DNA from: Candidatus Raymondbacteria bacterium RIFOXYA2_FULL_49_16
Lineage (GTDB): Bacteria; Fibrobacterota; OXYB2-FULL-49-7; XYB2-FULL-49-35
Reading direction: 5' to 3'
Assembly (NCBI GenBank): GCA_001789205.1
Contig: MFYT01000059.1
Location: 1-44,439 of the forward strand
DNA length: 44,439 nucleotides
Position numbers and translations under genes: made by a program. The notes below the pieces were generated by a model. That model saw only the letters and a list, made by a program, of their open reading frames with translations, made no database searches and was not told the origin of the DNA. Positions 4,069 to 34,337 of this stretch are shown here, piece by piece; position 1 is the first letter of the stretch; every line of letters begins with the position of its first letter.

Positions 4069-4974
4069 ATGTATATATTTCATCACTACACCAGTATGAA
4101 AGCGGTACTTCTACTTGGCCGTCTTGTGCGTGCCATGCCATGCTTCCTTGTCTCGGCCATGGCAGTGATGCTTGGCAATCTGATCTATTTTTGTGTTCCC
4201 TACAGGAAAAGCGTGATTCTTCAGCAGATGACGAAGTGTTTAGGCAATACATTGGATAACAATGAGATACGAAAGCTTGCCAGACTGAATTATGTGCACT
4301 ATGGCCATGTGCTTTTTGAGTCTCTTTTATTAGCGTCTTTTGGAAAGGGAGAAACGGATTATTTTGAAGAGCATTTCACCATTTCCGGAAAAGAGGAATT
4401 ACTGCAGGCGCTTGCCCAAGGCAAAGGTGTGGTGCTCATCGGCGGCCATATGGGTTTCTGGGAAGCTTTTGGCCATTGGCTGGTGCGGTACGCCTCGCCG
4501 GTCACGGTACCGGTAAAATTCATTCACAACCATTTTGTCCAAAAACTGCGCGAACAAATGCAGGCCCATCCCGCTATTACGCTTGTTGACAGCCGCATGG
4601 AACGGCAGCGGTCAGTCGTGGTCATCCGCGCACTTAAAAAAGGGGAGGTAGCGGGTCTCTTCATAGACCAGTACCGGCCTTCCGAGGAGTTTGCGCCTTT
4701 TTTCGGTCACGACGCCCGGACAAATTCAACGGCCGCAATCCTTGCCAGACGGACCAACGCGGCCATTATATATACATATATCGTGAGGAAGCGGTTTGGC
4801 AGCTACCAGATGCATTTTCAAAGGGTGCACCTTCCTGATGCGGATGGAAAAGGCGGGGCTGCGCAGGCCAATGCCCTGTTCAACCGGCTTCTTGAAGAGA
4901 CTATACGCACCTATCCCGACCAGTGGTTCTGGGCCCATCGAAGGTTCAAGGAAAATCCGGAGTTTACATACTAA
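4069..4974 (+). CDS. Lipid A biosynthesis (Kdo)2-lipid IVA acyltransferase family protein
   Basis: 301 residues of the LpxL/HtrB family, which transfers an acyl chain to lipid A at the inner membrane; its presence implies an outer membrane with LPS. A hydrophobic N-terminus (about 12-43) anchors the protein. The HX4E catalytic pair lies in GGHMGFWE (His127, Glu132), and DQWFWAHRRFK near the C-terminus is the usual family ending. An alternative start is the Met at 4096; neither start has a clear ribosome site. The AT-rich stretch upstream (about 4030-4055) holds TATAAT-like hexamers and probably also drives the divergent sigma factor. purM and dnaG follow in the same direction at short distances. 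Confidence 0.85.
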   Translation: MYIFHHYTSMKAVLLLGRLVRAMPCFLVSAMAVMLGNLIYFCVPYRKSVILQQMTKCLGNTLDNNEIRKLARLNYVHYGHVLFESLLLASFGKGETDYFEEHFTISGKEELLQALAQGKGVVLIGGHMGFWEAFGHWLVRYASPVTVPVKFIHNHFVQKLREQMQAHPAITLVDSRMERQRSVVVIRALKKGEVAGLFIDQYRPSEEFAPFFGHDARTNSTAAILARRTNAAIIYTYIVRKRFGSYQMHFQRVHLPDADGKGGAAQANALFNRLLEETIRTYPDQWFWAHRRFKENPEFTY

Positions 4975-27880: not shown

Positions 27881-27977
27881 TTTCCCTCCGCCGCCTAATC
27901 CTGATTTTTGGATTGGGCTTTTTTGTTTCTGGTGGTATTACTGATTTTCCCTTTGGTTGAACAACCGGGGGAACTAT

Positions 27978-28553
27978 ATGGAACGGATATGCGCAGGGAG
28001 TCATTGTGGAAGGGTGTTTACGCTCAATCCAAGGGTTAAGGACCAGCGGTATTGTTCGCGTGCGGAATGCCAAAAGGAACGAAGGTCGCTTTGGCATAAA
28101 CGGAAGATTATGACCGATAGGGATTATAAGCGGAACCAGGATGCGGCGCAGCAGCTTTGGCGGAAGACCCGTCCTGATTACTGGCGGAACTACCGTAAAT
28201 TGCATCCGGCGTACACAGAGCGTAACCGCGTACTTCAACGGGAACGCAATCGCAAAGCACGGGGTGAAAAGAGTGGCGCTGCGCCACCCGTCGGAGTGAT
28301 TGCAAAAGAGGATTTGGTGATTGCAAAGATGGACTCGTTAACTAATGTAAGATCAGGAACTTACCGTTTGGTTCCGGTTGTTTCCGGGGTGATTGCAAAG
28401 ATGGACTCGTTAACTAATGTAAGATCAGGAACTTACCGTTTGGTTCCGGTTGTTTCCGGGGTGATTGCAAAGATGGACTCGTTGATTGTGCAACTATCCA
28501 TAATACCAGCAGGTTACGGAAATGCGGTTGATTGCAAAGATAGGACTCGATAG
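27978..28553 (+). CDS. Zinc-finger accessory protein of the IS21-type element
   Basis: 191 residues from the ATG at 27978 (GGGGGA just upstream; a TTG at 27957 is less likely). The N-terminus has four cysteines with CAGSHCGRVF and YCSRAEC, a probable zinc-binding site. A basic, aromatic, helical region (DYWRNYRKLHPAYTERNR) follows, and then an Ala-Lys-Met-Asp repeat region. Residues about 114-161 are two identical 24-residue copies starting VIAKMDSLTN, a recent in-frame duplication. I recall unnamed proteins with this cysteine/YWRxYR layout and AKMD tail in other bacteria, but no function. It probably binds nucleic acid. It overlaps the ParB-like gene by 32 bases. Confidence 0.7.
   Translation: MERICAGSHCGRVFTLNPRVKDQRYCSRAECQKERRSLWHKRKIMTDRDYKRNQDAAQQLWRKTRPDYWRNYRKLHPAYTERNRVLQRERNRKARGEKSGAAPPVGVIAKEDLVIAKMDSLTNVRSGTYRLVPVVSGVIAKMDSLTNVRSGTYRLVPVVSGVIAKMDSLIVQLSIIPAGYGNAVDCKDRTR
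28317..28483 (+). repeat. 72-bp tandem repeat inside the zinc-finger gene
   Basis: Two exact 72-bp units start at 28317 and 28389, with a partial third from 28461. Each unit begins GTGATTGCAAAGATGGACTC. A shortened version of the first half starts at 28296, and a further relative lies at the very start of the ParB-like gene (28528-28547). The unit length keeps the reading frame. Confidence 0.9.
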
Positions 28554-29580
28554 GTTTTCAGCTCATGATGTGTTAAATTTACTACCGGAACCCGGCCGAC
28601 TTTCTGTGCTTGGGCAAGGAGGATGCGTGACGGACACGGTGGAACTGGGCCATCTCGACACCCGGTATGAACATCTTCGCCTCAAGGATCAGGGGCGTGA
28701 ATATGCTATCCAGTCATCCATCCTGGAGCAAGGCATTCTGGAGCCGCTGTGTGTGATTGCCTTGAGCGATGCGGAGCGCGTTCTTTTGGACGGGTACAAA
28801 CGATACCGGTGCGCAGTACGTTTGCGCCTTTCAAGTATACCGGTGATGACCTGGGAGGATGATGTGGCGGTTGGCATACTGAAGCTGCTTCGGTTTTCTT
28901 CCGGCAACCGTCTTAGCGCTGTCGAGGAAGCCGGCCTCATTAACGAACTGTACGAGGTTCATCAGCTGAGTATGGTTGAGATAGCCCGTCGGCTTGAGCG
29001 TTCGGTCTCATGGGTCAGTTTACGGCTGGGGTTATTGCAAGATATGGGTGATGACGTTCGGGAGAGGATATTTTCGGGTGAGTTCCCTGTGCGGAGCTAT
29101 ATGTATTCCCTGCGCCATTTTACGCGCGTAAAGTCCGGTATACCCAAGGAGGCGGTATCGGCCTTTGTGGGCTGCGTGGCCGGTCATGGTTTGAGCGGTC
29201 GTGATATTGACCGGTTGGCCCAGGCCTATTTTAAAGGGGACGCTGTGATGAAGTCCCAGATTGAAAAAGGGCAACTGGATTGGACGCTGCGGCAATTGAG
29301 AGAGGGTGATGCCAGGCAGGAGAAGCAGTGTGATAATTTAAGCGAACTGGAATCGCGTGTTTTATCGCAACTGGACGCTGTTTGTGCGTGTTCAGTAAAG
29401 TTGAGTTATGGTCTGAAGGATACCCGACTGGCGAGCAATGACTTTTTCGCTTACGGGTCCGAGGTCGCCCGGAAGGTTTTAAAGGACTGGGATGGTTTTC
29501 ACCGTACGTTACGGGAGTTTTATGATAGCGCAAGAGCAAAGAGAGACGGTCATATCGCTGCATCGGTTGGGAAAGCATAA
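28522..29580 (+). CDS. ParB/Spo0J-like DNA-binding protein carried by the IS21-type element
   Basis: 352 residues. A ParB N-terminal-type domain (about 60-140: QSSILEQGILEPLCV, LLDGYKRYRCAV) is followed by a KorB/ParB helix-turn-helix (LSMVEIARRLERSVSWVSLR, about 150-170), and a helical C-terminus. In plasmids and chromosomes such proteins bind centromere-like sites. Here there is no ParA nearby, so partitioning is unlikely; target choice, regulation or bridging of element ends is a possible role. The start codon lies inside the end of the zinc-finger gene, and the end overlaps istA by 59 bases. Confidence 0.75.
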   Translation: MRLIAKIGLDRFSAHDVLNLLPEPGRLSVLGQGGCVTDTVELGHLDTRYEHLRLKDQGREYAIQSSILEQGILEPLCVIALSDAERVLLDGYKRYRCAVRLRLSSIPVMTWEDDVAVGILKLLRFSSGNRLSAVEEAGLINELYEVHQLSMVEIARRLERSVSWVSLRLGLLQDMGDDVRERIFSGEFPVRSYMYSLRHFTRVKSGIPKEAVSAFVGCVAGHGLSGRDIDRLAQAYFKGDAVMKSQIEKGQLDWTLRQLREGDARQEKQCDNLSELESRVLSQLDAVCACSVKLSYGLKDTRLASNDFFAYGSEVARKVLKDWDGFHRTLREFYDSARAKRDGHIAASVGKA

Positions 29581-31063
29581 GAAAAAGATTGCCCGGCTGT
29601 TGGGCATTGACGTCAAAACCGTCAAGAGCATCGTCAAGAACGGATGTGGCGTGCAACCCAAGCCCCGCAGTGACAAGATTGTTTTGGATGAACCGCTTTT
29701 GAGGAAAGTGTTTTCCCGCTGTGAAGGGTATATGCAGCGCGTGCATGAGGTTCTAAACGAAGAATACGGCATTCCAATAGGCTATTCCACGCTTACACGG
29801 AGAATCCGGGAAATGGGCCTGGGGGAGAACGCCTCTACCCGGAGTTATCACGTTGACGATGTCGCGGGTGAAGAGATGCAGCACGACACTTCGCCATACA
29901 AGGTCAAAATAGGCGGGAAAGAAACGTCCGTTATCGGCAGCGGGTTGTACCTTCGCTACTCTAAAATGCGCTATGTCTGGTTCTACCGGCGCTTCAACCG
30001 GTTTATTATGAAATGTTTTATGGACGAGGCATTACGGTTCTTCGGGTATGGCGCAAGGACATGTGTTATCGACAATACCAGCCTTGCCATCTGGTACGGT
30101 ACGGGTCAAAGGGCGGTGTTTGCGCCTGAGATGGTGAACTTCTCGAAGAATTACGGCTTTGAATGGAAGGCTCATGAGGTCGGCCATTCCGACAGAAAAG
30201 CAGGCGTTGAGAGAAGCTTCTGGACCGTGGAAACGAACTTCTTTCCCGGACGCACTTTTGCGGATATCGAAGACCTCAATGCCCAGGCGTTCGAATGGGC
30301 GACGCAAAGATACGCGAAAAGGCCCCAGGCCAAGACAGGACTTATTCCCCTACAAACCTTTGAAGCGGAGAAACCCTATCTTGTGAAACTGCCGGAATAT
30401 GTCTCGTTCCCTTGTCAGGAACACCACAGAAGCCTGGACGATTACGGATACGCGGCCTTTGACGGCAATTATTACTGGGCGCCCGAGTATACCAAGGATG
30501 CGCAGAAAATAAAGGAAGTTAAAATCATCGAGTATGCGAAAATCATTGTTCTCCACTATAAAAACACGGAACCGCTGCGTTATTGCCTGCCAAAGGACGG
30601 AGTCAGAAACGAGCGGTTCACCCCGGATGGCGTGAAGCCAGCCTATCAGCCCAGGAACAGAAAAAAATCCAGTGGTGAAGAAGAAAAGGCGCTTCGTGGC
30701 ATGGGCAAAACTGTCAGCGACTATGTGGACATGGTAAAGACAAAAAACAGCGGCATTCATTACCCGCATCACTTCTTAAGGGAGCTTTACCTCCTCTTGA
30801 GGAAAATGGCGCAGCCTCTCCTTGAACAAACAATTGAGCGGGCTTTGAAATACCGGGTCAATACCATCGAGGCCATTGCCAGGATCGCCGCCGCTTGCCT
30901 CAAACCGAATACCGGAACGTTACCCGAAATAGAAGTCTCACACGACTACATGGAACGGGAAGCCTATCAAAAAGGCAGATTCTGTGATGAGCCGGGACTG
31001 GATACGCTCGAATCCATCTTCAACCGTGATGGAAGCGACCCCCAAAATCCTGAAAAGGAATAA
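29522..31063 (+). CDS. istA: IS21-type transposase IstA
   Basis: 513 residues from the ATG at 29522 (GGGAG upstream); an in-frame start at 29492 is less likely. The N-terminus has a helix-turn-helix (KKKIARLLGIDVKTVKSIV). The catalytic triad of the rve/DDE core is visible as QHD (Asp122), VIDN (Asp184) and AGVERSFW (Glu230), in the right order and spacing. A basic C-terminal domain follows. The gene looks intact. istB follows after 5 bases. Confidence 0.88.
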   Translation: MIAQEQRETVISLHRLGKHKKKIARLLGIDVKTVKSIVKNGCGVQPKPRSDKIVLDEPLLRKVFSRCEGYMQRVHEVLNEEYGIPIGYSTLTRRIREMGLGENASTRSYHVDDVAGEEMQHDTSPYKVKIGGKETSVIGSGLYLRYSKMRYVWFYRRFNRFIMKCFMDEALRFFGYGARTCVIDNTSLAIWYGTGQRAVFAPEMVNFSKNYGFEWKAHEVGHSDRKAGVERSFWTVETNFFPGRTFADIEDLNAQAFEWATQRYAKRPQAKTGLIPLQTFEAEKPYLVKLPEYVSFPCQEHHRSLDDYGYAAFDGNYYWAPEYTKDAQKIKEVKIIEYAKIIVLHYKNTEPLRYCLPKDGVRNERFTPDGVKPAYQPRNRKKSSGEEEKALRGMGKTVSDYVDMVKTKNSGIHYPHHFLRELYLLLRKMAQPLLEQTIERALKYRVNTIEAIARIAAACLKPNTGTLPEIEVSHDYMEREAYQKGRFCDEPGLDTLESIFNRDGSDPQNPEKE

Positions 31064-31068
31064 ATACC

Positions 31069-31815
31069 ATGGACAATGAAATTAAAGAACAATTGGATTA
31101 TCTGAAACTGAAACAACTTGCGGACTCTTGGGACAAAACCTTGGCCCAAGCCAATAAAACCAAAATCTCTTATCATCGCTTTCTGGAGGATATTATCAGC
31201 CGGGAATACCAGACCCTCAAAGAAAACAGGCGACAGGCAAGACTTAAGGCCGCTAAAATACCGGAAATGCTCCCCATGGAAACATTCCCCTTTACTGAGC
31301 AGCCCAAGCTCAAGAAAAAGATGGTTATGGAGGTTTACGACTCCCTCAACTATATCCATCAGGCCCAGGTGCTCTGCCTCATCGGCCCCACCGGATGCGG
31401 AAAATCAGGCTTGGCAACCGCCTATCTCATCAACGCCATGAATAAGGGCTACCGGGGACGCTTTATCGACTTTAGAGAACTCGTGGACCTCCTGTACAGG
31501 TCCCAGGCGGACTATTCACGGAAGAAAGCCCTCAAACAACTGGCCGCCTATGACTGCCTGCTTATCGATGAACTCGGATACTGTTCGATTGACAAAGAAG
31601 AGGCGGGGCTGTTCTTCGACCTCATGAAACAAAGGCACAAAAGGAAGTGTACCATCATCACCACCCAGCTCGGCTTCGATGAATGGAACACTTTCCTGGC
31701 GAACAAACACCTCACCATGGCGCTAATCGACCGCATTACCGAGAACTGCACTGTCTTCGATATGCAGAAATGTATCAGCATAAGAATCAAGAATATCAAA
31801 TACGCCACGGAATAG
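31069..31815 (+). CDS. istB: IS21-type helper ATPase IstB
   Basis: 248 residues. Walker A is GPTGCGKS (106-113) and Walker B is LLIDELG (164-170), followed by a TIITTQLGFDEW sensor segment and an arginine-bearing ALIDRITENC segment typical of the DnaC/IstB AAA+ family. IstB forms ATP-dependent oligomers on target DNA and stimulates IstA. It looks intact, which suggests the element may still be active. Confidence 0.9.
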   Translation: MDNEIKEQLDYLKLKQLADSWDKTLAQANKTKISYHRFLEDIISREYQTLKENRRQARLKAAKIPEMLPMETFPFTEQPKLKKKMVMEVYDSLNYIHQAQVLCLIGPTGCGKSGLATAYLINAMNKGYRGRFIDFRELVDLLYRSQADYSRKKALKQLAAYDCLLIDELGYCSIDKEEAGLFFDLMKQRHKRKCTIITTQLGFDEWNTFLANKHLTMALIDRITENCTVFDMQKCISIRIKNIKYATE

Positions 31816-31965: not shown

Positions 31966-32159
31966 AGGGGTTGTTGGCATCCTTTAAAAAAATGTGGGCA
32001 AAAGTGTCAAAACATACATTAATTACGTGATATTTTGTGTAATATTTTACATTTTTTATCACGTTTTACATGTTTATTAAACTGATATGTCATTGGTTTT
32101 ATCATAATTACGACTAAGCCGGCCTAGCCGGAACAAAGATTAATGAATTTATAAAAGAA
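31966..32159. other. AT-rich intergenic stretch after the IS21-type element
   Basis: No gene seen. The middle (about 32010-32100) is very AT rich. A short perfect palindrome CCGGC-CTA-GCCGG lies at 32119-32131 and may belong to the left end of the next mobile element; I find no matching copy on its right side. Confidence 0.4.
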
Positions 32160-32216
32160 TAGCGTTCGCTTTCCGATAATGGGGTTACAACAGACCCAAA
32201 CAGGAGGTGAACGCTA
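32160..32216 (+). promoter_or_regulatory. Leader hairpin that covers the ribosome site of the transposase-like gene
   Basis: Bases 32160-32173 can pair with 32203-32216 in an unbroken 14-bp stem (11 Watson-Crick pairs, 3 G-U). The right arm contains the whole GGAGG ribosome site and the A of the start codon at 32216. Transcripts that enter from outside would carry both arms and be poorly translated; a transcript that starts inside the loop would not. Similar control is known in some insertion sequences such as IS10. Confidence 0.72.
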
Positions 32217-33742
32217 TGAATGATTTTTTGAAGAAGCACGAGGCTTCGATTACAGGAACTATATCGGTAACGGACCGGCTGATCTTGAAGGGATATTTGC
32301 CGATGAGCTATCCAGAGGCTGCGGAGAGGTTCTTTGCGCTGCGGGGTATTCTCTTGAAAGAGTTCAAGGATTTTACAAAGGCGCAGACTGAGACATTGAA
32401 GGTGCATGCGCAAGCTATGGCTAAGAAAGAGAATCGGCCTTACGAATACCTGAATGGATATGTCCGTAAAGAAGAATATGTCAGGAAGATAGCAGAGCGG
32501 GACGGCATCACGGAAGGGCTGATTTGCGTTTTGGCGATGAATGAAGAAAATCACACTTTTACGCTTCGATATGGAGAAGGCCGTCCCCGCCTGAAGAAGA
32601 GTTCGCCGCGCTGTTTGACGCTGTACTTTTACTACCTGGACCGGCATTTTGGTTTCATGCATGTCAGAGTGAGCACCTGGCTGCCTTTTTCTATTCAAGT
32701 TTACGTGAACGGTCACGACTGGCTTGCCAGACAACTGACAACCAAAGGTGTCTCGTACCGGCAGGTGGAAAACGCCTTTGTTTCCATCGCGGATTGCGGA
32801 AAAGCGCAGGCCGTCGCCGACCGTTTTCCGACATTGCCATGGGAGAAGATTCTGCATGTCTTTGCTCGTCGTGTCAATCCTTTGTTCAAGACGATACTCA
32901 AGGGGATGGAATATTACTGGGTCATTGACCAAGCCGAATATGCTACGGATGTAATGTTTCGCAATCACGACATATTGGATGAGCTGTATTTGAATTGGCA
33001 GAAGCACGCCGCTGTCTGCACACAAGCCGAAGACGTCATGCGTTTCATGGGTCGGAAGCTTCACGGTTCGTTTAACAGCGTGATTCAAACGGATGCAAAG
33101 TATCGGCCGACAGTGACTCGAATCAAGCATGTCATGCGGGGTAACTGGATCAAAATGTACAACAAGCAAGGGATTGTACTGCGTGTCGAGACGGTCATCA
33201 ACCGTCCCCGGGAGTTCCGCATCAGTCGGACCGGTCGCGGCAAGAAGGCCGTAGATTGGTTTCCCATGCCCAAGCGGGTCAGCAGCATGAAACGTTACGG
33301 TGACATTTGCCTTCGGGCAAATCGGGCCTACCTGCAAGCGTTGGCGCAAGTCGATAACCCGGCGGAAGCGTACCGACAGTTGGACGGCTTGTGCGAACCT
33401 CAAAAATTGTCCAAGCAAAGAATCCGAGGCCTCAACCCATTGAGAGAAAGAGACCGGGTGCTCTTTGAGGCCGTTGTGCGGGGAGAGCATTTCATTAAAG
33501 GTTTCCAAGCATCGGATCTGGCTTGGCGTCTGGCAATCATACGCCCTGACGATCCAGTCGAACGGAAAAGATGTTCCGCCAAACTGAATCGAAAGCTGCG
33601 CTTGCTCAGGGGGCATGGCCTCATCGTACGAATCTCTCGTTCCAGACGGTACAAAATTACCGACATCGGAATAAAGCTGATGAATGCTGCACTCCACCTG
33701 CGCACAACCGGACTGCCTGAAATCCTTAACAAAGCAGCTTAA
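32216..33742 (+). CDS. Transposase-like protein of an unnamed dispersed family, C-terminal winged helix
   Basis: 508 residues from the ATG at 32216 with AGGAGG eight bases upstream. Visible landmarks: VTDRLILKGYLP near the N-terminus, FGFMHVRVSTWLPFSIQVYV and NGHDWLARQL in the middle, RIKHVMRGNWIKMYNKQG, and a C-terminal winged-helix-like segment (LRLLRGHGLIVRISRSRRY). I recall closely similar unnamed proteins in several phyla, often multicopy, which suggests a mobile element, but I cannot assign a known transposase family or catalytic triad. No terminal inverted repeats are found. It is flanked on one side by the IS21-type element and on the other by a decapitated gene. Confidence 0.6.
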   Translation: MNDFLKKHEASITGTISVTDRLILKGYLPMSYPEAAERFFALRGILLKEFKDFTKAQTETLKVHAQAMAKKENRPYEYLNGYVRKEEYVRKIAERDGITEGLICVLAMNEENHTFTLRYGEGRPRLKKSSPRCLTLYFYYLDRHFGFMHVRVSTWLPFSIQVYVNGHDWLARQLTTKGVSYRQVENAFVSIADCGKAQAVADRFPTLPWEKILHVFARRVNPLFKTILKGMEYYWVIDQAEYATDVMFRNHDILDELYLNWQKHAAVCTQAEDVMRFMGRKLHGSFNSVIQTDAKYRPTVTRIKHVMRGNWIKMYNKQGIVLRVETVINRPREFRISRTGRGKKAVDWFPMPKRVSSMKRYGDICLRANRAYLQALAQVDNPAEAYRQLDGLCEPQKLSKQRIRGLNPLRERDRVLFEAVVRGEHFIKGFQASDLAWRLAIIRPDDPVERKRCSAKLNRKLRLLRGHGLIVRISRSRRYKITDIGIKLMNAALHLRTTGLPEILNKAA

Positions 33743-33743
33743 C

Positions 33744-34337
33744 ATGATATTTTATCTACCCAAAAAACGTATATCTTTTAAACACAGAGTCTTCCCTGAT
33801 ACCTTTATGGTTGGAGCCCTTAGCACCATTCCGCTCTCGGCTTTCGATGAGGAAGGAGACGCATTGACCTGGACGGTTCTGGATCAACCCGCTTCCATGT
33901 CCATTATTGATACAACCCTTATATGGGCACCTTTGAAGGCTGAGGAGGGTTTGGATACACTTACGATAATTGTTTCCGATGGCTTGCTATCCGATACCCT
34001 CATTAAGCCTGTTGTGATCTATGATGAAAATTCCGTTGCGGAAAAAATGATGGAAATGCCAAAAGCATTAAGCCTTTCCGCATCTCCCAACCCCGCGAAT
34101 CCGACTGTTAATTTGACAGTGGGAATTCCCGCGTCAATGAAACAAGCGGCCACGGTTCAGATATTTGGAATCAACGGTAAAGTCGTCCGTTCCTGGCAGC
34201 TATCAGGAGCAGGCTACCACAAAATAGCCTGGAATGGCCGTGATAATAGCAATACGGCTATTTCAAGCGGATTGTATCTGGTTCGGGTATCTGGAACAGG
34301 GAAGGTTCTGCAACGAAAGGTATTGTTGCTGAAATAG
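33744..34337 (+). pseudogene. C-terminal fragment of a secreted protein
   Basis: About 197 residues. A cadherin/He_PIG-like domain (AFDEEGDALTWTVLDQPAS, LIIVSDGLLSDTL-like end) is followed by a FlgD-like C-terminal sorting module (SASPNPANPTVNLTV, NGRDNSNTAISSGLYLVRV). There is no signal peptide; the frame begins at the end of the transposase-like gene. It is therefore the tail of a larger surface protein cut off by the mobile DNA, and its 5' part is not visible in the window. Confidence 0.78.

Follow-up and report, generated by a model that had tools for sequence, protein, structure and literature searches.

A leader hairpin over the ribosome-binding site of a predicted transposase gene in an apparently undescribed insertion-sequence family

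The stretch of DNA analysed here (the window) is contig MFYT01000059.1 of Candidatus Raymondbacteria bacterium RIFOXYA2_FULL_49_16 (assembly GCA_001789205.1), 44,439 nucleotides (nt) in length. Its forward strand carries an insertion-sequence-like element of 1,677 base pairs (bp), within which an open reading frame (ORF) at 32216-33742 encodes a protein of 508 amino acids (aa), as stated in the original prediction, that is predicted from sequence to be the transposase of the element. The leader of this gene can form a hairpin between an upstream arm and the region running from the ribosome-binding site to the start codon (Table 1), and comparison with related sequences indicates that this hairpin is real and is under selection as a control element of the insertion-sequence transposase.

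The hairpin comprises 14 pairs and a loop of 29 nt, the paired region taking in both the GGAGG (32203-32207) and the A at 32216 that opens the ATG start codon. Folding of the RNA corresponding to 32150-32226 yielded -28 kcal/mol, as compared with a mean of -11.6 for shuffled sequences (z -6.4), none of 200 shuffles equalling it, while the duplex test of the window leader against shuffled leaders gave p=0.003, the floor for 300 shuffles. These values sustain the 14-bp leader hairpin that had been predicted originally, and the coordinates agree with the further claim that pairing takes in the whole GGAGG and the A of the AUG. Its description as being without interruption applies to 14 consecutive pairs only when wobbles are counted, because three of them are G·U and the other 11 Watson-Crick. 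An Rfam search produced a chance match only.

Table 1. Coordinates of the element and of its features in the window
Feature	Position	Strand	Sequence or basis
Left arm of leader hairpin	32160..32173	+	TAGCGTTCGCTTTC
Right arm of leader hairpin, from ribosome-binding site GGAGG to A of start codon	32203..32216	+	GGAGGTGAACGCTA
GATAAT, possible weak -10 just behind left arm, with no recognisable -35	32175..32180	+	Read from sequence; search not significant
Predicted transposase, 508 aa: TATA-binding protein (TBP)-like core, putative active site D20, E241, D245, K313, Y315, K317, R323, E325; C-terminal winged helix	32216..33742	+	Family alignment, AlphaFold2, Foldseek
Whole insertion-sequence-like element, 1,677 bp; left end AAGCCGGC.., right end ..CAGAGTCT	32116..33792	+	Own-genome ends and multi-copy relatives
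CT directly 5' of left end, target dinucleotide (..CT/AAG); right end also ends in CT	32114..32115	+	Junction comparison
Left-end hairpin CCGGC-CTA-GCCGG, then AAC	32119..32131	+	Motif in 50/59 elements
Noncoding right end, ending GAGTCT	33743..33792	+	83-85% identical to three own-genome right ends stopping exactly here

Relatives were sought in a scan covering one genome per species, in which 219 were confirmed and 80 of these retrieved. Of 18 close-clade leaders, 10 show pairing with the ribosome site at p<0.01, versus 1 of 51 neighbouring control genes (Fisher p 4e-13), a count in which the start codons of L118, L124 and L126 are one base off, the right positions having been used when pair types were compared. 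For this test the partner strand was shuffled; in the comparison of pair types, arm positions were found by a search that was run identically on the shuffles. Distant members display a weaker excess of pairing (7/38 at p<0.05). When sequences are anchored on the start codon, both-sided changes appear among members at six positions, +1, -1, -2, -5, -6 and -7, the pair being T-A, G-C, A-T or C-G at -5, C-G, G-C or T-A at -7, and T-A or C-G at +1; the compensatory changes that the original prediction had proposed looking for are therefore found in most close relatives. The hairpin of L014 takes another register, spanning the start codon. In the extra copies present in the source genome, a single base of the left arm is changed, and with right arms like that of the window this change would replace a G·U by an A-U; the right arms themselves lie beyond contig ends.

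These observations also bear on whether the inverted repeat might act as DNA, being a binding site for the transposase or a regulator, with transcriptional autoregulation rather than RNA folding maintaining its pairing. An inverted repeat over a promoter could indeed serve as an operator, and a MarR/ArsR-like winged helix forms the C-terminus of the protein. However, members have widely differing arm sequences and yet retain both the pairing and its overlap with the ribosome site, operators do not usually contain loops of 29-59 nt, and the three G·U pairs form in RNA but not as a DNA palindrome. Such a DNA-level signal is thus considered improbable.

Regarding the transcripts on which the hairpin would act, the promoters of relatives, which are consensus matches and not mapped starts, are informative. 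In L120 the left arm lies between TTGACA and GACTAT, at a spacing of 17 nt, and in Dorea the sequence CCTCCAA sits between TTGCAT and TACAAT; L061, L071 and L122 show the same placement, L086 nearly so, whereas in L041, L056 and L024 the arm is directly behind TATATT or TATACT. Together with L025, all the numbered members just listed have significant or near-significant promoters with the arm either between -35 and -10 or directly behind -10, in which case native transcripts would begin inside or after the arm and only transcripts from outside would hold both arms. Leader hairpins are known to shield transposase translation from read-through in IS10 and IS50 (and IS200). As in IS10/IS50, the start codon and ribosome site of the transposase gene are here paired with an arm further upstream, which in relatives of the window element precedes the predicted own transcription start; differences are the unrelated transposase and a window copy with no recognisable promoter. 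By analogy, the hairpin probably protects the element against activation by transcripts entering from neighbouring genes. An IS21-type IstA/IstB pair (29492-31815), located just upstream on the same strand, is a plausible source of such read-through. As a separate observation on this neighbourhood (27957-31815), istA/istB are directly preceded by a ParB/KorB-like gene (28522-29580), which overlaps istA, and by a 198-aa ORF, both unusual companions for an IS21 element.

The protein search of the source genome found one copy of the gene, while the left-end pattern retrieved three more left ends, in each of which 82-93 bp of the element precede the end of the contig, and the right-end search three further right ends, also at contig ends; from these broken ends we infer a multi-copy repeat in a collapsed assembly. 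Junctions of the window copy (slashes marking the element boundary) are ..ACGACT/AAGCC on the left and CAGAGTCT/TCCC on the right, those of the other own-genome copies being ..TTCT/AAGCC (three copies) and ..GAGTCT/AA. A right end at ~33759 (..TTATCTA) was ruled out by the three own-genome copies that place it at 33792. In multi-copy relatives similarity stops sharply, on the left at CCT/AAC, followed by a small hairpin CCGG-n-CCGG-AACC, and on the right a short distance past the stop codon, at ..GTAAGRGACT/A or ..GTGCCT/AA. The left-end hairpin was scored in 50 of 59 elements and its stem covaries (CTGG/CCAG, GCGG/CCGC, GTAGC/GCTAC), while hairpins at the right end were only seen by eye, and in several relatives. 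For Lachnospiraceae, searches with the joined flanks of copies from Dorea and A4 brought up empty sites, of which the clearest, 97% identical, reads GTCTTA-CCTAA-TGTTATAAG, CCTAA being present on both sides of the filled site; comparison of two gammaproteobacterial genomes returned repeated flanks only and no clean empty site. The mobile nature that the hairpin was originally said to support is thus shown independently, by sharp-ended multi-copy elements, empty sites and additional own-genome copies. That this might be instead an ordinary transcription regulator whose copies moved passively, as the name 'ArsR family regulator' given to a relative on a Paraburkholderia plasmid could suggest, is highly improbable, since element-like ends enclose only this gene amid unrelated flanks, empty sites exist, and the predicted fold of the large conserved core is not that of a regulator.

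Some further features of the elements were recorded. L003 and L004 have left-end-like CTAA[CG]CCGGCAAAGCCGGAAAG and common sequence beside decayed C-terminal fragments, and are perhaps non-autonomous derivatives. In L073 (~4488-4620) tandem repeats of AAGTACCT, similar to the terminal sequence of the element, come after the right end, a pattern that repeated copying of this end would leave. A 543-aa open frame, probably a codon-usage shadow, runs antisense over the whole window element (32114-33745, minus strand).

The single CCTAA of the empty site, together with the junctions of the window copy, points to a target ..CT(AA) and at most a 2-bp CT duplication. CT at both junctions, occurring once in an empty site, could also reflect double-stranded DNA transposition with a 2-bp (CT) target duplication, but terminal inverted repeats are absent from the aligned element ends, which differ from each other in both sequence and structure, making this route unlikely. 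The anatomy recalls the IS200/IS605 elements of the Y1 HUH family, such as IS608 and ISDra2 (PMC6006769): a small left-end hairpin, no inverted terminal repeats, and apparent insertion 3' of a short fixed target with no more than 2 bp repeated. The protein differs, having ~500 aa versus ~150 aa, a predicted TBP-like core and no HUH/Y1 match (no hit to the Y1_Tnp (Y1 HUH) Pfam model among 48 members). Absence of inverted repeats and possibly of duplication, and a replication-initiator-like enzyme, are shared with IS91/ISCR, the Y2 HUH rolling-circle elements, whose HUH and double-tyrosine motifs have no match here. IS110/IS1111, which use a bridge RNA or seekRNA, likewise lack conventional inverted repeats and have a possible CT core and a noncoding leader; nevertheless, here there is no DEDD (RuvC-like)/IS110 match in Pfam or NCBIfam, the noncoding leader is only ~100 nt and the flanks share no long target. 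A bridge-RNA reading was dropped on these three grounds. Guide-like pairing of the target CCT with an AGG downstream of the left hairpin was also discarded, Lachnospiraceae elements lacking that AGG.

Relatives occur in Acidobacteria, Planctomycetes, Bacteroidota, Chlorobiota, Chloroflexi, Firmicutes, Proteobacteria, Nitrospirota, Dependentiae and Armatimonadetes, among others, while the window's own phylum yielded fragments only and viral contigs no protein relatives. Matches per genome, partial and distant copies counted, reach 18 in an Anaerolineales genome (seven with identical score), 15 in Lachnospiraceae A4 and nine in Dorea sp. 5-2 (six identical). The 508-aa protein has no family match in Pfam, NCBIfam, PHROG or PADLOC, nor any among the NCBIfam insertion-sequence models, and full-text literature searches found no description of the element family. 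The family therefore appears to be an undescribed, widespread group of insertion sequences whose anatomy is IS200/IS605-like and whose predicted nuclease is of another kind.

Rep_trans (PF02486) proteins are initiators and relaxases such as pT181 RepC/RepD and ICEBs1 NicK, the initiators having a TBP-like sheet topology, a tyrosine on a strand and a D/D/E metal site (PMC4797284, PMC5714925). In the AlphaFold2 models of the window protein (predicted local distance difference test, pLDDT, 88 for the whole protein; for the core, pLDDT 91 and predicted template modelling score 0.89), D20, QxE241xAxD245, K313xY315DK317 and R323xE325 follow the order and spacing of the Rep_trans motifs (D .. [RQ]x[DE]xAxD .. 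[RK]xYxK .. RxE) on predicted strands, with the tyrosine likewise on a strand of a predicted TBP-like sheet. K313, K317, R323, E325, E241 and D245 are invariant in 48 members, and Y315 is kept in 47 of them. Scanning 257 ORFs for this signature gave 32 matches, all apparently family members and none outside the family, versus 3 in 4,800 shuffles. Differences from Rep_trans are the lack of motif II and of the E of YxKxxE, a Q for R in motif I, the lack of profile similarity, with no match to the Pfam profile, and the location in an insertion sequence instead of a plasmid, phage or integrative and conjugative element (ICE). Tyrosine nuclease activity of the protein is a prediction. A distant branch with ~21-25% identity (L006, L007 and L117; Rhodococcus, Mycobacterium and Caballeronia plasmids) keeps D20, E241, KxYxK and RxE, but not D245.

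The hairpin, the kept pairing, a mobile multi-copy family with defined ends, the left-end hairpin, the lack of terminal inverted repeats and insertion behind ..CT are all read directly from the sequence. Considering them together, we judge it probable that 32116-33792 is a small autonomous insertion sequence in which the hairpin gates translation of the transposase gene and which uses single-strand, Rep_trans-like tyrosine transposition. Transcripts from outside, possibly from the upstream IS21-type genes, would carry both arms and fold, burying the ribosome site and start codon, so that little transposase would be made, whereas those from the element's own promoter would begin within the left arm or after it and so avoid the hairpin. 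The transposase would recognise the hairpins at the element ends, Tyr315 would probably cut and join single DNA strands with a metal held by D20/E241/E325, and transposition would resemble the IS200/IS605 single-strand route with a Rep_trans-like instead of an HUH nuclease.

Several results weigh against this proposal. On the protein side, (i) the top PDB matches of the core in Foldseek, TATA-binding protein chains, are weak (E 0.008, probability up to 0.89), (ii) RepD is not among the 50 matches listed for the core, and (iii) hhalign profile comparison with Rep_trans, for the whole protein and sub-regions, was negative (probability 0.1-0.9%). Because of this negative comparison, membership of Rep_trans was dropped while the motif and fold resemblance was kept, the motifs reflecting either convergence or very remote kinship. 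Regarding the hairpin, none is significant in the subclade L008, L010 and L119, nor in L125. Orientation relative to guanine-cytosine (GC) skew, for which a bias is expected under lagging-strand insertion, is one-sided in one genome and mixed in another: all nine insertions examined in Lachnospiraceae A4 (G177) have negative skew on the element strand, a possible replication-strand bias, while those in Dorea divide three and three. Finally, the promoter search of the window leader gave nothing significant, and its read-through specificity is thus argued by homology and analogy; the block of read-through originally put forward gains support from promoter placement in relatives and, for the window copy, is only inferred. 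The lack of a recognisable promoter in the leader would also fit a constitutive damper, in which the element's own transcript carries the left arm too and all transposase messenger RNA, native or read-through, is poorly translated. An AT-rich TATAAA just upstream of the left arm would, as a -10, put the start at about the first arm base. Since relatives with clear promoters have the arm upstream of the predicted start, this alternative appears somewhat unlikely.

More broadly, these elements may form an undescribed insertion-sequence class, spanning a dozen or so phyla, that combines single-strand transposition by a Rep_trans-type TBP-fold tyrosine nuclease with an evolved read-through lock, a proposal that we advance only tentatively and would not yet favour in full. 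To our knowledge, no transposase is known to use such a catalytic solution; should the catalytic reading hold, hairpin-ended transposition, probably of the single-strand type, would have two independent chemistries. The leader hairpin suggests that this element family, though unrelated, has also acquired read-through protection, and the numerous natural variants in which it covaries open the mechanism to direct testing. Nonetheless, the element family itself, which is present in gut Lachnospiraceae among other bacteria, is the more important result, and giving it an insertion-sequence name would set many annotations right.
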